A stretch of 40,096 nt of DNA from Actinomycetota bacterium. Its GTDB lineage: Bacteria; Actinomycetota; Actinomycetes; Streptosporangiales; Streptosporangiaceae. Of the stretch, positions 15,047 through 18,802 are shown piece by piece. The translations under genes and the position numbers were made by a program. Within the stretch, counting starts at the first letter, position 1. The number at the start of each line of letters is the position of its first letter. The notes beneath the pieces are model-generated. The model ran no database searches and had not been told where the DNA came from. It saw only the letters and a program-made list of their open reading frames with translations. The stretch spans positions 1 through 40,096 of the forward strand of contig JAJPIV010000097.1 in the NCBI GenBank assembly GCA_021324595.1, read 5' to 3'.

Positions 15047-15135
15047 GGGCGCAGCGTTCCCCGCCCGGGCCGTGGTCCCCTCACCCGGCCAGGGTGATCT
15101 CGCCCGTGCGGCGCGGCCCCGGCACGCCCGGGGAC

Positions 15136-15151
15136 ATACCCCCGCCGGTAT
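15136..15151. promoter_or_regulatory. CsoR-family-like operator, copy 1
   Basis: ATACCCCCGCCGGTAT, an ATACC/GGTAT inverted repeat with six central bases and a C-tract. This AT-flanked, G/C-tract form resembles sites of CsoR/RcnR/CstR repressors. It ends just before a candidate -35 of the rhodanese promoter. Confidence 0.55.
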
Positions 15152-15181
15152 TTGCCTCCTGGTGCCGCGGTCGGCTATCGT
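15152..15181 (+). promoter_or_regulatory. Promoter of the rhodanese-persulfide dioxygenase-TauE operon
   Basis: TTGCCT (15152-15157), an 18-base spacer, and TATCGT (15176-15181) give a start near 15188, between operator copies 1 and 2. Binding to either copy would block initiation or clearance. Confidence 0.45.
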
Positions 15182-15192
15182 GCCGGGAGTCG

Positions 15193-15208
15193 ATACCTAC
15201 CGGGGTAT
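15193..15208. promoter_or_regulatory. CsoR-family-like operator, copy 2
   Basis: ATACCTACCGGGGTAT has the same ATACC-N6-GGTAT architecture as copy 1, 57 bases further on, close behind the predicted transcription start and 14 bases before the rhodanese ATG. Confidence 0.55.
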
Positions 15209-15222
15209 ATGAAGGGTGGAGC

Positions 15223-15591
15223 ATGATACGTGAGGTCGATGTGCGGACGTTCGCCGCGGCCCACCGGGACGGGGCGTTCGTCATCGACGTGCGCGAGGCC
15301 TACGAGTACGCCGCCGGGCACGTCCCCGGCGCGCTGCTGGTCCCCCTGGCCACCGTGCATGCCCGGATGGGCGAGTTCCCGCGCCACGAGCCGGTGTACG
15401 TGATCTGCGCATCGGGCAGCCGCAGCCTGGCCGCGGCCTCGTGGCTGGCGTCGGCGGGAATCGACGCCTGGTCCGTGGCGGGCGGGACGAGCGCCTGGGC
15501 GAGTGCGGGCGGCCCCCTGGCGAGGCGCCTTCGCGCCGCCCCGGGGCCGAACGGGCTCGGCGCCCTGCGCGAGAACGGGCTCGGCGCATGA
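15223..15591 (+). CDS. Single-domain rhodanese (sulfurtransferase)
   Basis: A 122-residue rhodanese, which carries sulfane sulfur as a cysteine persulfide. The domain runs from about 5 to 100, with VIDVREAYEYAAGHVPGALLVPL (CH2A-type motif) and the active loop CASGSRS with Cys62. The six-residue loop fits the small thiosulfate/polysulfide sulfurtransferases (GlpE/PspE/CstA-like). The tail contains a tandem duplication of 24 bases (15549-15563 and 15573-15587 identical), giving NGLGALRENGLGA. ATG 15223 has AGGGTGGAG upstream. Its stop overlaps the next start (ATGA), so translation is coupled to the persulfide dioxygenase. Two operator-like repeats precede it. Cytosolic. Confidence 0.92.
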   Translation: MIREVDVRTFAAAHRDGAFVIDVREAYEYAAGHVPGALLVPLATVHARMGEFPRHEPVYVICASGSRSLAAASWLASAGIDAWSVAGGTSAWASAGGPLARRLRAAPGPNGLGALRENGLGA

Positions 15592-16954
15592 TCGACGTCA
15601 TCGGCGTCGACACCCCGTCGCTCGGCGACCGCAGCTACCTCGCCACGGACGGCCAGGTCGCCCTGGTGATCGACCCGCAGCGGGACATCGACCGCGTGCT
15701 CGGCCTCGCGGCCGAGCACGGCGTGCGAATCACTCACGTGTTCGAGACCCACATCCACAACGACTACGTGACCGGCGGGCTGGCGCTCGCCCGCCACACC
15801 GGGGCCGCGTACCACGTGAACGCCGCCGACAAGGTGGCCTACGAGCGCACGCCCGTCTCGGACGGCGACGTGATCGCGGTCGGGGACGTGATGCGGCTCA
15901 CCGCCATCGCCACGCCCGGCCACACGTTCACGCACCTGTCCTACGCGCTCTCGGATGCCCGACCGGGAGGATCGCAGCGGCCTTCACCGGCGGGTCGCTG
16001 CTGTACGGCTCGACCGGACGGCCGGACCTGCTCGGCCCCGCGCACACCGAGGCTCTCGCCAAGGCGCAGCACGCCTCCGCCCGGCGCCTGGCCGCGCTGC
16101 CGGACCAGACCCCGGTCTGGCCCACCCACGGGTTCGGCAGCTTCTGCTCGGCCACCCAGGCGGCCGGAACCGCGTCCACGATCGGCGAGCAGAAGCGGGT
16201 CAACCCGGTGCTGCTGCTCGACCGGGAGCGGTACGTGGCCGGGCTCCTCGCCGGGCTCGACGCCTACCCTGCGTACTACGCGCACATGGCGGCGGCCAAC
16301 GCCGCCGGCCCGGCCGCCGCCGACCTCACCCCGCCCGAGCCCGCTGACGCGGCAACCCTGGCGGCGCGGATCGCGGCGGGAGAGTGGGTGGTGGACCTGC
16401 GGTCGCGGCGCGCGTTCGCCGCCGGCCACGTGCCCGGCACGCTGAGCTTCGAGCACGGCACCGACTTCACCAGCTACCTGGGCTGGCTGATCCCGTGGGG
16501 CACCCCGCTGACCCTCATCGGCGAGACCCCGGACCAGGTCGCCGCCGCCCAGCGGGACCTGGCGAGGATCGGCATCGACCGGCTCGCCGGGGCTGCGTCG
16601 GGCCGGCCGGAGGAGCTGGCCGGGGGCCGGCCGCTCGCCTCGATCGCGGTCGCCGGCTTCGCCGAGCTCGAGGCGGTCCGGCATCACCGGCCGGTGACGA
16701 TCCTCGACGTGCGCCGGGCGGCCGAGTGGGCGGACGGCCATCTCGACGGCGCGGTCCACATCCCGCTGCACGACCTGCCGGCCCGGATCGCCGCCGGGAA
16801 CGTGCCGCCAGGCGAGATCTGGGTGCACTGCCAGTCGGGGTACCGCTCGTTCATCGCCGCGTCGCTGCTCCAGGCAGCGGGCCGGACGGTGGTCGCGGTC
16901 GATGACGACTTCACCCGGGCGTCCGGCGCCGGGCTCGCGCTGGCCGCGGGGTGA
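15588..16954 (+). pseudogene. CstB-like persulfide dioxygenase-rhodanese, split by a frameshift
   Basis: Two adjacent reading frames together encode one multidomain enzyme of about 455 residues. The first frame (from ATG 15588) holds the metallo-beta-lactamase fold: LVIDPQRDIDRVL, ETHIHNDYVTGG with His55/His57/Asp59, and ATPGHTFTHLSYALSDA. It then breaks at about 15957-15968. The second frame resumes with GRIAAAFTGGSLLYGSTGRPDLLG and VWPTHGFGSFC. Next come a rhodanese-like domain without Cys (WVVDLRSRRAFAAGHVPG) and a rhodanese with VHCQSGYRS. One missing or two extra bases would explain it. This order equals that of staphylococcal CstB, which oxidises low-molecular-weight persulfides and makes thiosulfate. 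The intact downstream part argues for a recent event or a sequencing error; programmed frameshifting is less likely. Stop at 16952-16954. Confidence 0.85.
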
Positions 16955-16982
16955 GCGCCCGGCACGGCGGGGTGACCCTGCG

Positions 16983-17879
16983 GTGATCGTCCTCGCGGTC
17001 GCTGCCGGCCTGGTCATCGGCGGCAGCCTCGGCGCCCTCGGCGGGGGCGGGTCGATCCTGACCGTGCCCGCCCTGGTGTACCTGCTCCGGGAGAGCCCGC
17101 ATCAGGCCACGACCGCGTCGCTGATCGTGGTCGGGGCGGCCGCGCTCGCGGGGGCGGTGATTCACCACCGGGCCGGCCGGGTCCGGTTGCTTCCCGGCCT
17201 CGCCTTCGGCGCGGCGGGCATCGCCGGCTCCTACGCCGGGTCGCTGGCCAGCGCGGCTGTCCCGGCACCGCTGCTGCTCGCCGGATTCGGCGTGCTGATG
17301 CTGGTGGTGGCGGCGCTGATGCTGCTGCGCCGGGACCGGCCCGGCGGCCGGCGGCCGGCGGCCGGCCCTGGCCGTCCGGCGACGGCGGTGGCGGCGGCAG
17401 GCGCCGGCCCCGCCCTCGCCGGCCCCGCCCGGCCCAGCGCCGGCGCGAGCGCCGCAGCAGGCGCCGCGGGCCTTGCCCGGCTCGCCGCCAGGCGCGGGCT
17501 GTCTCGCGAGGTCCTCGTGGTGCTGGCCGCCGCCACGGGTGTCGGGCTGATCACGGGGTTCTTCGGAGTCGGCGGCGGGTTCGTGGTGGTGCCCGCCCTC
17601 GTGCTGGTCCTCCGCTTCGACCTGCCGGCGGCGGCCGGGACCTCGCTGGTGGTGATCGCGGTGAACAGCGCCGCCGCCCTCGTCGCCCGGGCCGGGCACG
17701 TCGCCCAGCAGAGCTGGCCGCTCCTGGCCGTCTTCGCCGCTGCCACCGCGGCGGGCGCGCTCACCGCGGGCGGCCTCGCCGGCCGGATCAGCCCGCGCCG
17801 CCTCAACGCCGCGTTCGTCGTCCTGATCATCCTGGTCGCCGCGTACACGCTCGCCCGCAGCGTCCCGGCGCTGGCCTGA
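16983..17879 (+). CDS. TauE/SafE-family sulfite/anion exporter
   Basis: A 298-residue membrane transporter of the TauE/SafE (DUF81) family, which moves sulfite, sulfoacetate or related anions. Two homologous halves each carry the family glycine-rich motif: GGSLGALGGGGSILTVPALVYL near the N-terminus and GLITGFFGVGGGFVVVPALVLVL in the second half. About eight hydrophobic segments are visible. A hydrophilic Ala/Pro/Gly-rich linker of some 50 residues (RPGGRRPAAGPGRPAT... to ARRG) separates the halves and is longer than usual. GTG 16983 begins directly at the first helix and follows the persulfide dioxygenase stop by 28 bases. TauE accompanies PDO-rhodanese genes in cst-type operons and would remove the sulfite that persulfide oxidation yields. 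Confidence 0.9.
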   Translation: MIVLAVAAGLVIGGSLGALGGGGSILTVPALVYLLRESPHQATTASLIVVGAAALAGAVIHHRAGRVRLLPGLAFGAAGIAGSYAGSLASAAVPAPLLLAGFGVLMLVVAALMLLRRDRPGGRRPAAGPGRPATAVAAAGAGPALAGPARPSAGASAAAGAAGLARLAARRGLSREVLVVLAAATGVGLITGFFGVGGGFVVVPALVLVLRFDLPAAAGTSLVVIAVNSAAALVARAGHVAQQSWPLLAVFAAATAAGALTAGGLAGRISPRRLNAAFVVLIILVAAYTLARSVPALA

Positions 17880-17888
17880 GGTGGCGGA

Positions 17889-17911
17889 GCCGCGGCGCAC
17901 GGCGTCGCGGC
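17889..17911 (+). terminator. Stem-loop after the sulfur operon
   Basis: GCCGCG (17889-17894) pairs with CGCGGC (17906-17911) across an 11-base loop, ten bases after the TauE stop. No U-tract; weak evidence. Confidence 0.25.
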
Positions 17912-18008
17912 GGCAGCCCGCCGGCCGCAGGTCCGCCGGCCAGGCCGGTACCGGTGCACGGGGGACGGCGAAGCCGGGATCACCTCGCGCGGCGGCCGAC
18001 CCGGAATA

Positions 18009-18024
18009 ATACCCTCTCGGGTAT
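18009..18024. promoter_or_regulatory. CsoR-family-like operator, copy 3, on the PIG-L start
   Basis: ATACCCTCTCGGGTAT is a perfect 6-4-6 inverted repeat (ATACCC/GGGTAT) and the most symmetrical of the three copies. Its last two bases are part of the ATG of the deacetylase gene, and a TAATAC (18007-18012) that could be the -10 overlaps its left arm. A bound protein would cover the promoter and start codon. Confidence 0.6.
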
Positions 18025-18754
18025 GAGGGTGACGGACGTGGGTGAACGCCGGCGGCTGCTGCCGACCTGGCGGAGCGTGCTCGCCGTCGTGGCTCATCCG
18101 GACGACGAGTCATTCGGGCTCGGCGCGGTGATCGCCGAGCTGGTCCGGCGCGGGGCTGCCGTTCACGTCCTGTGCTTCACCCACGGCGAGGCCTCCACGC
18201 TCAACGAGACGCACACCGACCTGCGGGCCACGAGGGAGGCCGAGCTCCACCGGGCCGGCACCGAGCTCGGCGTGGCTTCGGTGGCCCTGCTTGAGTACTC
18301 CGACGGCGCGCTAGCAGGCGTCGCCCGCGCCGAGCTGGCCAGCCGCGTCCTGGATGCCGCCCGCCGGGTCGGCGCCACGGGCGGCCCTGACGGCCTCCTG
18401 GTCTTCGATGACACTGGGATCACCGGTCACCCCGACCACCGCGCGGCCACGGCCGCCGCCGCCGACGCCGCAGAGCTCGCCGCTCTTCCGGTCCTGGCGT
18501 GGACGCTGCCCGCCGACGTGGCCGCCGTGCTGCGCGCCGAGACCGGTCAGCCGTTCGCCGGCCGCCCGGAGGCCGAGATCGACATGAGCATCGTGGTGGA
18601 CCGTGCCGCGCAGCGACGCGCCGCCCTGGCCCACGCCAGCCAGGTCCCTCCCGGCGCCGCGGTCTGGCGCCGCCTGGAGCTGCTCGGCGACCGCGAGCAC
18701 CTGCGCTGGCTGCGCCCGCAGACGGCTCCCTCCGGCCATGGCGCCGGCCGGTAG
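18023..18754 (+). CDS. PIG-L/LmbE-family N-deacetylase (MshB/Mca-like)
   Basis: A 243-residue zinc deacetylase/amidase of the family that includes the mycothiol enzymes MshB and Mca. The zinc site is visible in VVAHPDDESFGLG (His-x-x-Asp) and in GHPDHRAATAA. CFTHGEASTL and the RATREAELHRAGTELGV helix are also typical. Mca-type enzymes hydrolyse mycothiol S-conjugates; MshB makes the mycothiol precursor. At 243 residues it is shorter than either, so it may be a different thiol-conjugate or sugar deacetylase. ATG 18023 overlaps an operator-like repeat identical in style to those of the persulfide operon, and no ribosome site is present, so a leaderless mRNA is likely; GTG 18029 is an alternative start. 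The shared operator suggests a role in sulfur or thiol stress. Confidence 0.85.
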   Translation: MRVTDVGERRRLLPTWRSVLAVVAHPDDESFGLGAVIAELVRRGAAVHVLCFTHGEASTLNETHTDLRATREAELHRAGTELGVASVALLEYSDGALAGVARAELASRVLDAARRVGATGGPDGLLVFDDTGITGHPDHRAATAAAADAAELAALPVLAWTLPADVAAVLRAETGQPFAGRPEAEIDMSIVVDRAAQRRAALAHASQVPPGAAVWRRLELLGDREHLRWLRPQTAPSGHGAGR

Positions 18755-18765
18755 CGCGGCTGGTG

Positions 18766-18802
18766 GCCGGCCCGGTGGTCGCCGGCCCGGTGTTCGCCGG
18801 CC
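18766..18802. repeat. 15-bp tandem repeat between convergent genes
   Basis: GCCGGCCCGGTGGTC (18766-18780) is followed by GCCGGCCCGGTGTTC (18781-18795) and a partial third copy. It lies between the PIG-L stop and the stop of the secreted glycoside-hydrolase-like gene and can form GC hairpins, so it may help termination. Confidence 0.4.

Follow-up and report, generated by a model that had tools for sequence, protein, structure and literature searches.

A PIG-L/LmbE-fold hydrolase gene in a 40,096-nt window of an Actinomycetota bacterium (Streptosporangiaceae; contig JAJPIV010000097.1, here C44) very probably belongs to a persulfide-responsive regulon. The window is the whole stretch of DNA that was analysed. 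It holds three copies of the palindrome ATACC-N6-GGTAT: two around the promoter of a rhodanese, persulfide dioxygenase (PDO) and TauE operon, and one on the start codon of the PIG-L gene. Sequence and analogy with known systems make it very likely that these sites are operators of a CstR-type persulfide-sensing repressor acting in trans, by which PIG-L would be induced together with persulfide detoxification. The core circuit is published for Streptomyces coelicolor; the new part is the PIG-L gene in the regulon.

Predicted operator sites and regulator

The three exact sites stand at the positions given in the original prediction (Table 1) and are the sole copies in the window. In 100 shuffles of the window a mean of 0.00 exact sites was found. 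When up to two mismatches were allowed, the window count stayed at three and the shuffles then gave about two. The starts of operators 1 and 2 are 57 bases apart, and operator 3 ends with the A and T of the PIG-L start codon (ATG at 18023). Paired sites also precede rhodanese-PDO genes in the one congener sampled (G055, 58 bases apart) and in G024 and G047 (both 61 bases apart).

The scan was extended to the whole genome (4,086,512 bases, 168 contigs). Five exact sites were found and the backwards pattern was absent. These five mark four promoters: that of rhodanese-PDO-TauE with two sites, that of PIG-L, that of a thioredoxin, methyltransferase::CsoR-domain and DUF302 operon, and that of a divergent pair, rhodanese and OsmC-aminotransferase. 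With the degenerate pattern ATACCC-N4-GGGTAT and up to two mismatches, the genome gave 19 sites and the control pattern 2; of the 19, the known five had zero or one mismatch and the other 14 had two. Since the two sites outside the window adjoin the thioredoxin-CsoR-DUF302 and the rhodanese/OsmC-aminotransferase genes, the link of the motif to sulfur is settled. On contig C28 the site (L008:7083-7098) lies just upstream of the thioredoxin gene, which is followed by the methyltransferase::CsoR-domain frame and then by DUF302. On contig C146 the site (L010:8337-8352) lies between the rhodanese and the divergent OsmC gene. A class V aminotransferase, named by reading its sequence, follows OsmC, and a convergent DsrE-type gene lies beyond.

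The window holds no CsoR-family gene, and the regulator had for this reason been placed in trans. Two such genes lie elsewhere in the genome, one on contig C28 and one on C133. The C28 protein fits the CstR two-cysteine pattern and bears out the placement in trans. Its only cysteines are C282 and C311, and Asn307 replaces the copper-ligand His. Asn is also found at this position in PDB 7mq1, which we take to be a CstR; the best-scoring chain, 6ahx, keeps His. From these residues and from the operator at its own operon it follows that a regulator invisible in the window alone exists and has a persulfide-sensing pattern. Three sequence features of a CstR/ScCsoR-type persulfide regulon were found together here: operators at the PDO promoter, a regulator with two cysteines and no His, and an operator at the operon of the regulator itself.

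We propose the following mechanism, modelled on ScCsoR of S. coelicolor. The repressor would be the C-terminal domain of the methyltransferase::CsoR-domain protein from contig C28. Bound to the site pair that flanks the rhodanese promoter and to the site at the PIG-L start, it would block RNA polymerase. Persulfide or polysulfide would modify its two cysteines, and the protein would leave the five sites. The four units (rhodanese-PDO-TauE, thioredoxin-methyltransferase::CstR-DUF302, rhodanese/OsmC-aminotransferase and PIG-L) would then be switched on together. Through rhodanese, PDO and TauE, sulfane sulfur would be oxidised to sulfite and exported. A TAATAC element at 18007-18012, read by eye, may serve as the -10 element; the PIG-L transcript would then be almost leaderless and fully under operator control. 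A sigma-70 consensus scan from 15050 to 18800 gave zero promoters, so the by-eye elements in Table 1 stand without scan support, and a terminator scan likewise gave nothing.

Recurrence of the site at PIG-L relatives

We scanned 88 loci around PIG-L relatives, composed of the matches from a family sample (61 genomes, 1e-20) and of 80 of the 555 relatives in the genome collection. In these 884,589 bases the motif occurred 75 times and the reversed control 0 times, and 29 palindromes with permuted half-sites occurred at most twice each. The site was present in 45 of the 88 loci. It lay on the PIG-L strand within 320 bases upstream of the match in 17 loci and 320-1200 bases upstream in 16 more. 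In L050, from Amycolatopsis roodepoortensis, a site stands 142 bases ahead of PIG-L. Within 1.2 kb upstream of PIG-L, a site was thus found at 33 of the 88, and a permuted palindrome at 1 of the 88 at most. The independent number is slightly lower, because some loci are near-copies (L050/L051, L074/L087). Chance, or a motif that is common throughout the genome, is ruled out for the exact sites of this genome (5 against 0) and for the PIG-L loci.

All 33 loci with an upstream site are from Actinomycetota, as judged by record titles and family loci. They span at least the family of the window, Intrasporangiaceae, Actinomycetaceae, Dietziaceae, Pseudonocardiaceae, Micromonosporaceae, Propionibacteriaceae and Acidimicrobiaceae. 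Conservation of the site upstream of orthologues in related genera had been named as a check in the original prediction; the site does recur upstream of PIG-L relatives in these taxa. Two of four Dormibacterota loci (L083, L098) carry sites in the neighbourhood, none of them upstream of PIG-L. In the Chloroflexota locus L032, zero sites were found in the 4.7 kb scanned. One Acidimicrobiaceae metagenome-assembled genome (MAG; G076) carries two clade PIG-L copies (L138, L140), each with its own upstream site.

Genomes of the family showed the same association. The five with the clade gene have 5, 12, 8, 6 and 2 sites; the 56 others average 1.55 (Mann-Whitney, 0.0007). The congener G055 has 12 sites, of which 11 were examined and 7 adjoin regulon genes. 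Two of these seven belong to rhodanese-PDO-TauE, and one each to CstR, thioredoxin-methyltransferase-CstR-DUF302, OsmC-aminotransferase, PIG-L and a rhodanese.

The association was also followed across PIG-L paralogues. In a quick tree of 126 rows, the window PIG-L, its relatives and 8 of 40 other PIG-L rows formed one group of 94 rows (SH-aLRT 98). MshB and Mca of the window's genome fell into other groups, separate from this one. The 40 rows are those retrieved from 65 PIG-L matches in ten genomes; no PIG-L frame was obtained from L016, L018, L019, L066, L106, L137, L145, L152, L154 and L174, which are absent from the tree. Of the 72 PIG-L matches in eleven genomes with complete site lists, only members of this group carry a site within 1.2 kb upstream: 7 of the 12 clade genes against 0 of the 60 others (Fisher, 5e-7). 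Of these 60, 32 were placed in the tree; the other 28, not retrieved or without a usable frame, count as outside only since none of them is the best query match. The genome of the window contains seven PIG-L matches, a single one of them with a site; sites are absent at MshB (365.5 bits) and Mca (471.3 bits).

Neighbouring genes were counted in the 88 loci by tblastn (1e-6), for which the queries were the proteins that the regulon encodes in the genome of the window. Thioredoxin was matched in 33 loci, DUF302 in 25, the CstR-type domain in 24, the methyltransferase in 23 and the aminotransferase in 21, where matches to the last two below about 35% identity may stem from different members of these large enzyme families. 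The two rhodaneses were matched in 20 and 9 loci, the C-terminal part of PDO in 13, TauE in 12, OsmC in 7 and DsrE in 7. Clustering of open reading frames (ORFs; relatives in at least three loci, single linkage, by which shadow ORFs can merge) added an SQR-like flavoprotein in 26 loci, an ArsR-rhodanese in 12, a CoA-disulfide-reductase-rhodanese in 7 and a peroxiredoxin in 6, all names being read from the sequences. The order site, thioredoxin, DUF302, PIG-L recurs in L046, L052, L056, L074, L087 and L090. In mycobacterial loci (L037 and its cluster) a peroxiredoxin gene lies between the operator (about -816) and PIG-L.

On sequence grounds, the data support PIG-L as a real member of the sulfur regulon. 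Several points weigh against this assignment. In 43 of the 88 loci there was no site in the DNA scanned. Only 6 of the 61 family genomes have any PIG-L match at 1e-20, and few have the clade gene. Over all 61 family genomes the motif occurred 120 times and the control 36 times, and lone copies in the family are therefore often due to chance. Among 29 further single-site family loci (L177-L205, about one per genome, 2-3 kb), 26 showed no query gene and only 3 showed one. In G055, the 4-7.6 kb examined around each of 4 of the 11 sites showed no known regulon gene. The neighbour counts are without a matched control, and thioredoxins and methyltransferases are common genes. The eleven-genome test is biased, because these genomes were picked after the site-bearing loci were known; the 88-locus count is free of selection by site status. 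Finally, the PDO reading frame in the window is broken near 15965, which reflects either an assembly error or recent gene loss. The frameshift had been missed in the original prediction. Both parts are well conserved and are 77% and 76% identical to the two parts of a single frame in G055.

The gene identities first claimed for the window were matched by Pfam and are listed with the sites in Table 1.

Table 1. Predicted operators, possible promoter elements and genes (positions in the window)
Feature	Position	Strand	Basis
Operator 1 (predicted), ATACCCCCGCCGGTAT	15136..15151	.	exact motif; precedes rhodanese promoter
Possible promoter between operators 1 and 2: TTGCCT 15152-15157, 18 b, TATCGT 15176-15181	15152..15181	+	by eye
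Operator 2 (predicted), ATACCTACCGGGGTAT	15193..15208	.	exact motif; identical 16 bases in congener G055
Rhodanese	15223..15591	+	PF00581, 58.5 bits
Type III PDO with C-terminal rhodanese domain	15588..16954	+	two frames: PF00753 in first part, PF00581 in second
TauE/SafE sulfite exporter	16983..17879	+	PF01925, 137.6 bits
Possible -10 element TAATAC, overlaps operator 3	18007..18012	+	by eye; near-leaderless transcript
Operator 3 (predicted), ATACCCTCTCGGGTAT	18009..18024	.	exact motif; overlaps PIG-L start codon; sites upstream of relatives
PIG-L/LmbE-fold hydrolase, distinct clade (signature AHPDDESFGLG ... THGEAST)	18023..18754	+	PF02585, 98.8 bits

Fold and candidate substrates of PIG-L

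The enzyme is most likely a zinc hydrolase that is induced together with persulfide detoxification, as judged from its sequence and from the related circuits. The residues H25, D27, D28, H136, D138 and H139 of the zinc/catalytic motifs HPDDE and HPDH are 100% conserved in 85 sequences, with duplicates and non-clade rows excluded. Alignment A1 comprises 42 rows; L028 and L041 were dropped from it for stop codons in the matched stretch. An AlphaFold2 model of the protein had a pLDDT of 90.4 and a pTM of 0.88. Motifs, the PF02585 match and the fold all place it in the PIG-L/LmbE superfamily. The best folds were tied between a diacetylchitobiose deacetylase (4xm2, Z 22.9), MshB (1q74, Z 22.8), LnmX (5bmo, Z 22.1), BshB (6ull, Z 21.6) and the hydratase GalB (5cgz, Z 21.4). 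Because the ties run across substrate classes, the fold search gives the superfamily and cannot separate substrates. By sequence, the closest solved chains are diacetylchitobiose deacetylases and LnmX.

Known thiol-pathway identities were rejected by score. The protein reached 40.6 bits of the 224.35-bit cut-off for MshB (TIGR03445) and 34.1 of 277.15 bits for Mca (TIGR03446). For BshB1 and BshB2 it reached 57.1 of 182.5 bits (TIGR04001) and 51.2 of 195.25 bits (TIGR04000), respectively. With MshB and Mca it has the PIG-L fold and the zinc motif in common. It differs from them in its tree group, in scores far below their cut-offs, and in its operator, which the genome's own copies lack.

Fold and context suggest that PIG-L would cut an amide bond in a small compound that is formed or altered under reactive-sulfur stress. 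It is quite possible that, within the same regulon, this compound is unrelated to mycothiol, such as an acetylated cell-wall amino-sugar, a secondary metabolite or an acylated thiol of another kind. The nearest solved chains agree with this, as do the tie of several substrate classes by fold, even with a hydratase, and a match in a Chloroflexota MAG without visible MshC. Against this reading, no positive evidence points to such a substrate, and the genes nearby concern thiols and sulfur.

A mycothiol-type compound is the leading guess for the substrate. In its specific form, which we hold to be possible but doubtful, PIG-L would cleave the amide of mycothiol persulfide, polysulfide or S-conjugates within this regulon, as Mca does on conjugates. 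N-acetylcysteine persulfide would be released or the sugar part recycled, an idea put forward in the original prediction. A mycothiol substrate is plausible because an MshC-like protein was found in 36 of 39 genomes with a PIG-L match; 21 of these score over the TIGR03447 cut-off and 15 at 370-433 bits. One of the 39, G052, has a sole match of 39% that lies outside the tree. MshB is among the tied best folds, and the motif residues are invariant in the 85 sequences. Against it stand the low MshB and Mca scores, the separate MshB and Mca genes in the genome, and three matching genomes in which no MshC-like protein was found: G029 (84% complete), G080 (Dormibacterota MAG) and G081 (Chloroflexota MAG). 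Mycothiol is general in actinobacteria, which weakens the co-occurrence with MshC. The original prediction is supported in part: PIG-L keeps its place in the regulon on sequence evidence, and its role in mycothiol persulfide turnover stays a hypothesis.

A wider proposal, which we put forward tentatively and regard as rather unlikely, is that the PIG-L clade forms a third, persulfide-inducible low-molecular-weight-thiol amidase of actinobacteria. It would dismantle persulfidated or S-conjugated mycothiol-like compounds, under a repressor that is here fused to an S-methyltransferase. If this were true, there would be a disposal route for sulfane sulfur beside PDO, thioredoxin and methylation, and the fusion may join sensing and H2S methylation in one protein.

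Known circuits and weaker alternatives

The regulon core is known biology, since the motif and the two-site PDO promoter are those of published ScCsoR. This protein represses PDO, TauE, rhodanese and itself through the motif ATACCn6GGTAT, with two sites in the PDO promoter; sulfane sulfur modifies its Cys37, and Cys66 is needed too (PMC7533328). The circuit (sco0618-sco0621) resembles ours in the motif, the two-site PDO promoter, a PDO with C-terminal rhodanese, TauE, a rhodanese and a CsoR-like repressor whose two cysteines are 29 residues apart. In contrast to our genome, where the repressor is methyltransferase-fused and on another contig, the ScCsoR gene adjoins the PDO gene. The boundary genes sco0622/0623 are described there as not controlled, whereas four units including PIG-L are predicted here. 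The site spacing is 57 bases here and 39 bases in S. coelicolor (PMC7533328).

The claim of a cst-like regulon in an actinomycete is upheld by sequence, with the S. coelicolor circuit as the closest precedent rather than the staphylococcal cst operon. In Staphylococcus aureus, CstR is a CsoR-family persulfide sensor over such sulfur genes of the cst operon. In the YrkD cluster of Bacillus licheniformis, too, a persulfide sensor of this family stands over genes for PDO, rhodanese, TauE and for thioredoxin-like and DsrE-like proteins (PMC9918477). Both systems differ from ours in being single gene clusters of bacillithiol organisms with no fusion, and no PIG-L gene is described for them in the sections of this source used here (PMC9918477).

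Among the matches listed in a literature search, none linked PIG-L/LmbE with persulfide, CsoR or CstR, and none was found on DUF302 together with thioredoxin and rhodanese; most subscription journals lie outside the coverage. The PIG-L clade, so far without a function, gains a recurrent physiological setting in reactive sulfur stress and a predicted regulator, and its substrate thereby becomes a directly testable question. The published four-gene actinobacterial persulfide circuit would be widened by thioredoxin, methyltransferase, DUF302, OsmC and aminotransferase. The result bears on how mycothiol organisms clear persulfidated thiols.

Two other explanations of the sites are very improbable. 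The first is that they are operators of the genome's copper-sensing CsoR and that the sulfur link is secondary. CsoR-family operators are alike, and the CsoR on contig C133 is of the copper type: its best match is S. lividans CsoR (4adz), His is kept, and it adjoins an apparent copper P-type ATPase, read from sequence. However, no exact site was found in the 18 kb around these genes (L009), and 12 matches with three mismatches stood against 14 expected by chance. A site precedes the operon of the CstR-type regulator itself. A copper-CsoR regulon, for which sites at copper efflux or copper CsoR genes would be expected, is not supported by these chance-level matches. The second, that the third site is a match by chance or in passing and PIG-L lies outside sulfur regulation, draws on the 43 siteless relatives and is hard to reconcile with the 33 upstream sites, the permuted control and the five sites in the genome.

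Some features of the two other loci were also recorded. The frame L008:7536-8531 on contig C28 of the window's genome (G000) combines a SAM methyltransferase and a CstR-type domain in 331 residues, connected by an Ala/Glu-rich repeat linker. A search of the 60 other family genomes gave no match that covered both domains. In G055, methyltransferase and CstR are separate genes in different frames, and DUF302 comes after them. MddM1 is an H2S/MeSH S-methyltransferase of Actinomycetota of about 210 residues that is H2S-induced in Mycolicibacterium (PMC12904073). The methyltransferase domain of the regulon is similar in size and differs, from what this source describes, in being CsoR-fused; the two may be kin.

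DUF302 (L008:8528-8932) recurs beside CstR-type genes, thioredoxin and PIG-L in 25 of the 88 loci and is a candidate sulfane-sulfur protein. A second CysS/MshC-like protein is encoded at G000:C28:68415-69437, about 8.6 kb before the thioredoxin-CstR operon. On contig C146, OsmC and the class V aminotransferase (cysteine-desulfurase-like by sequence; L010:8366-10305) lie behind one site, and the same pair with a site is present in the congener (L215).

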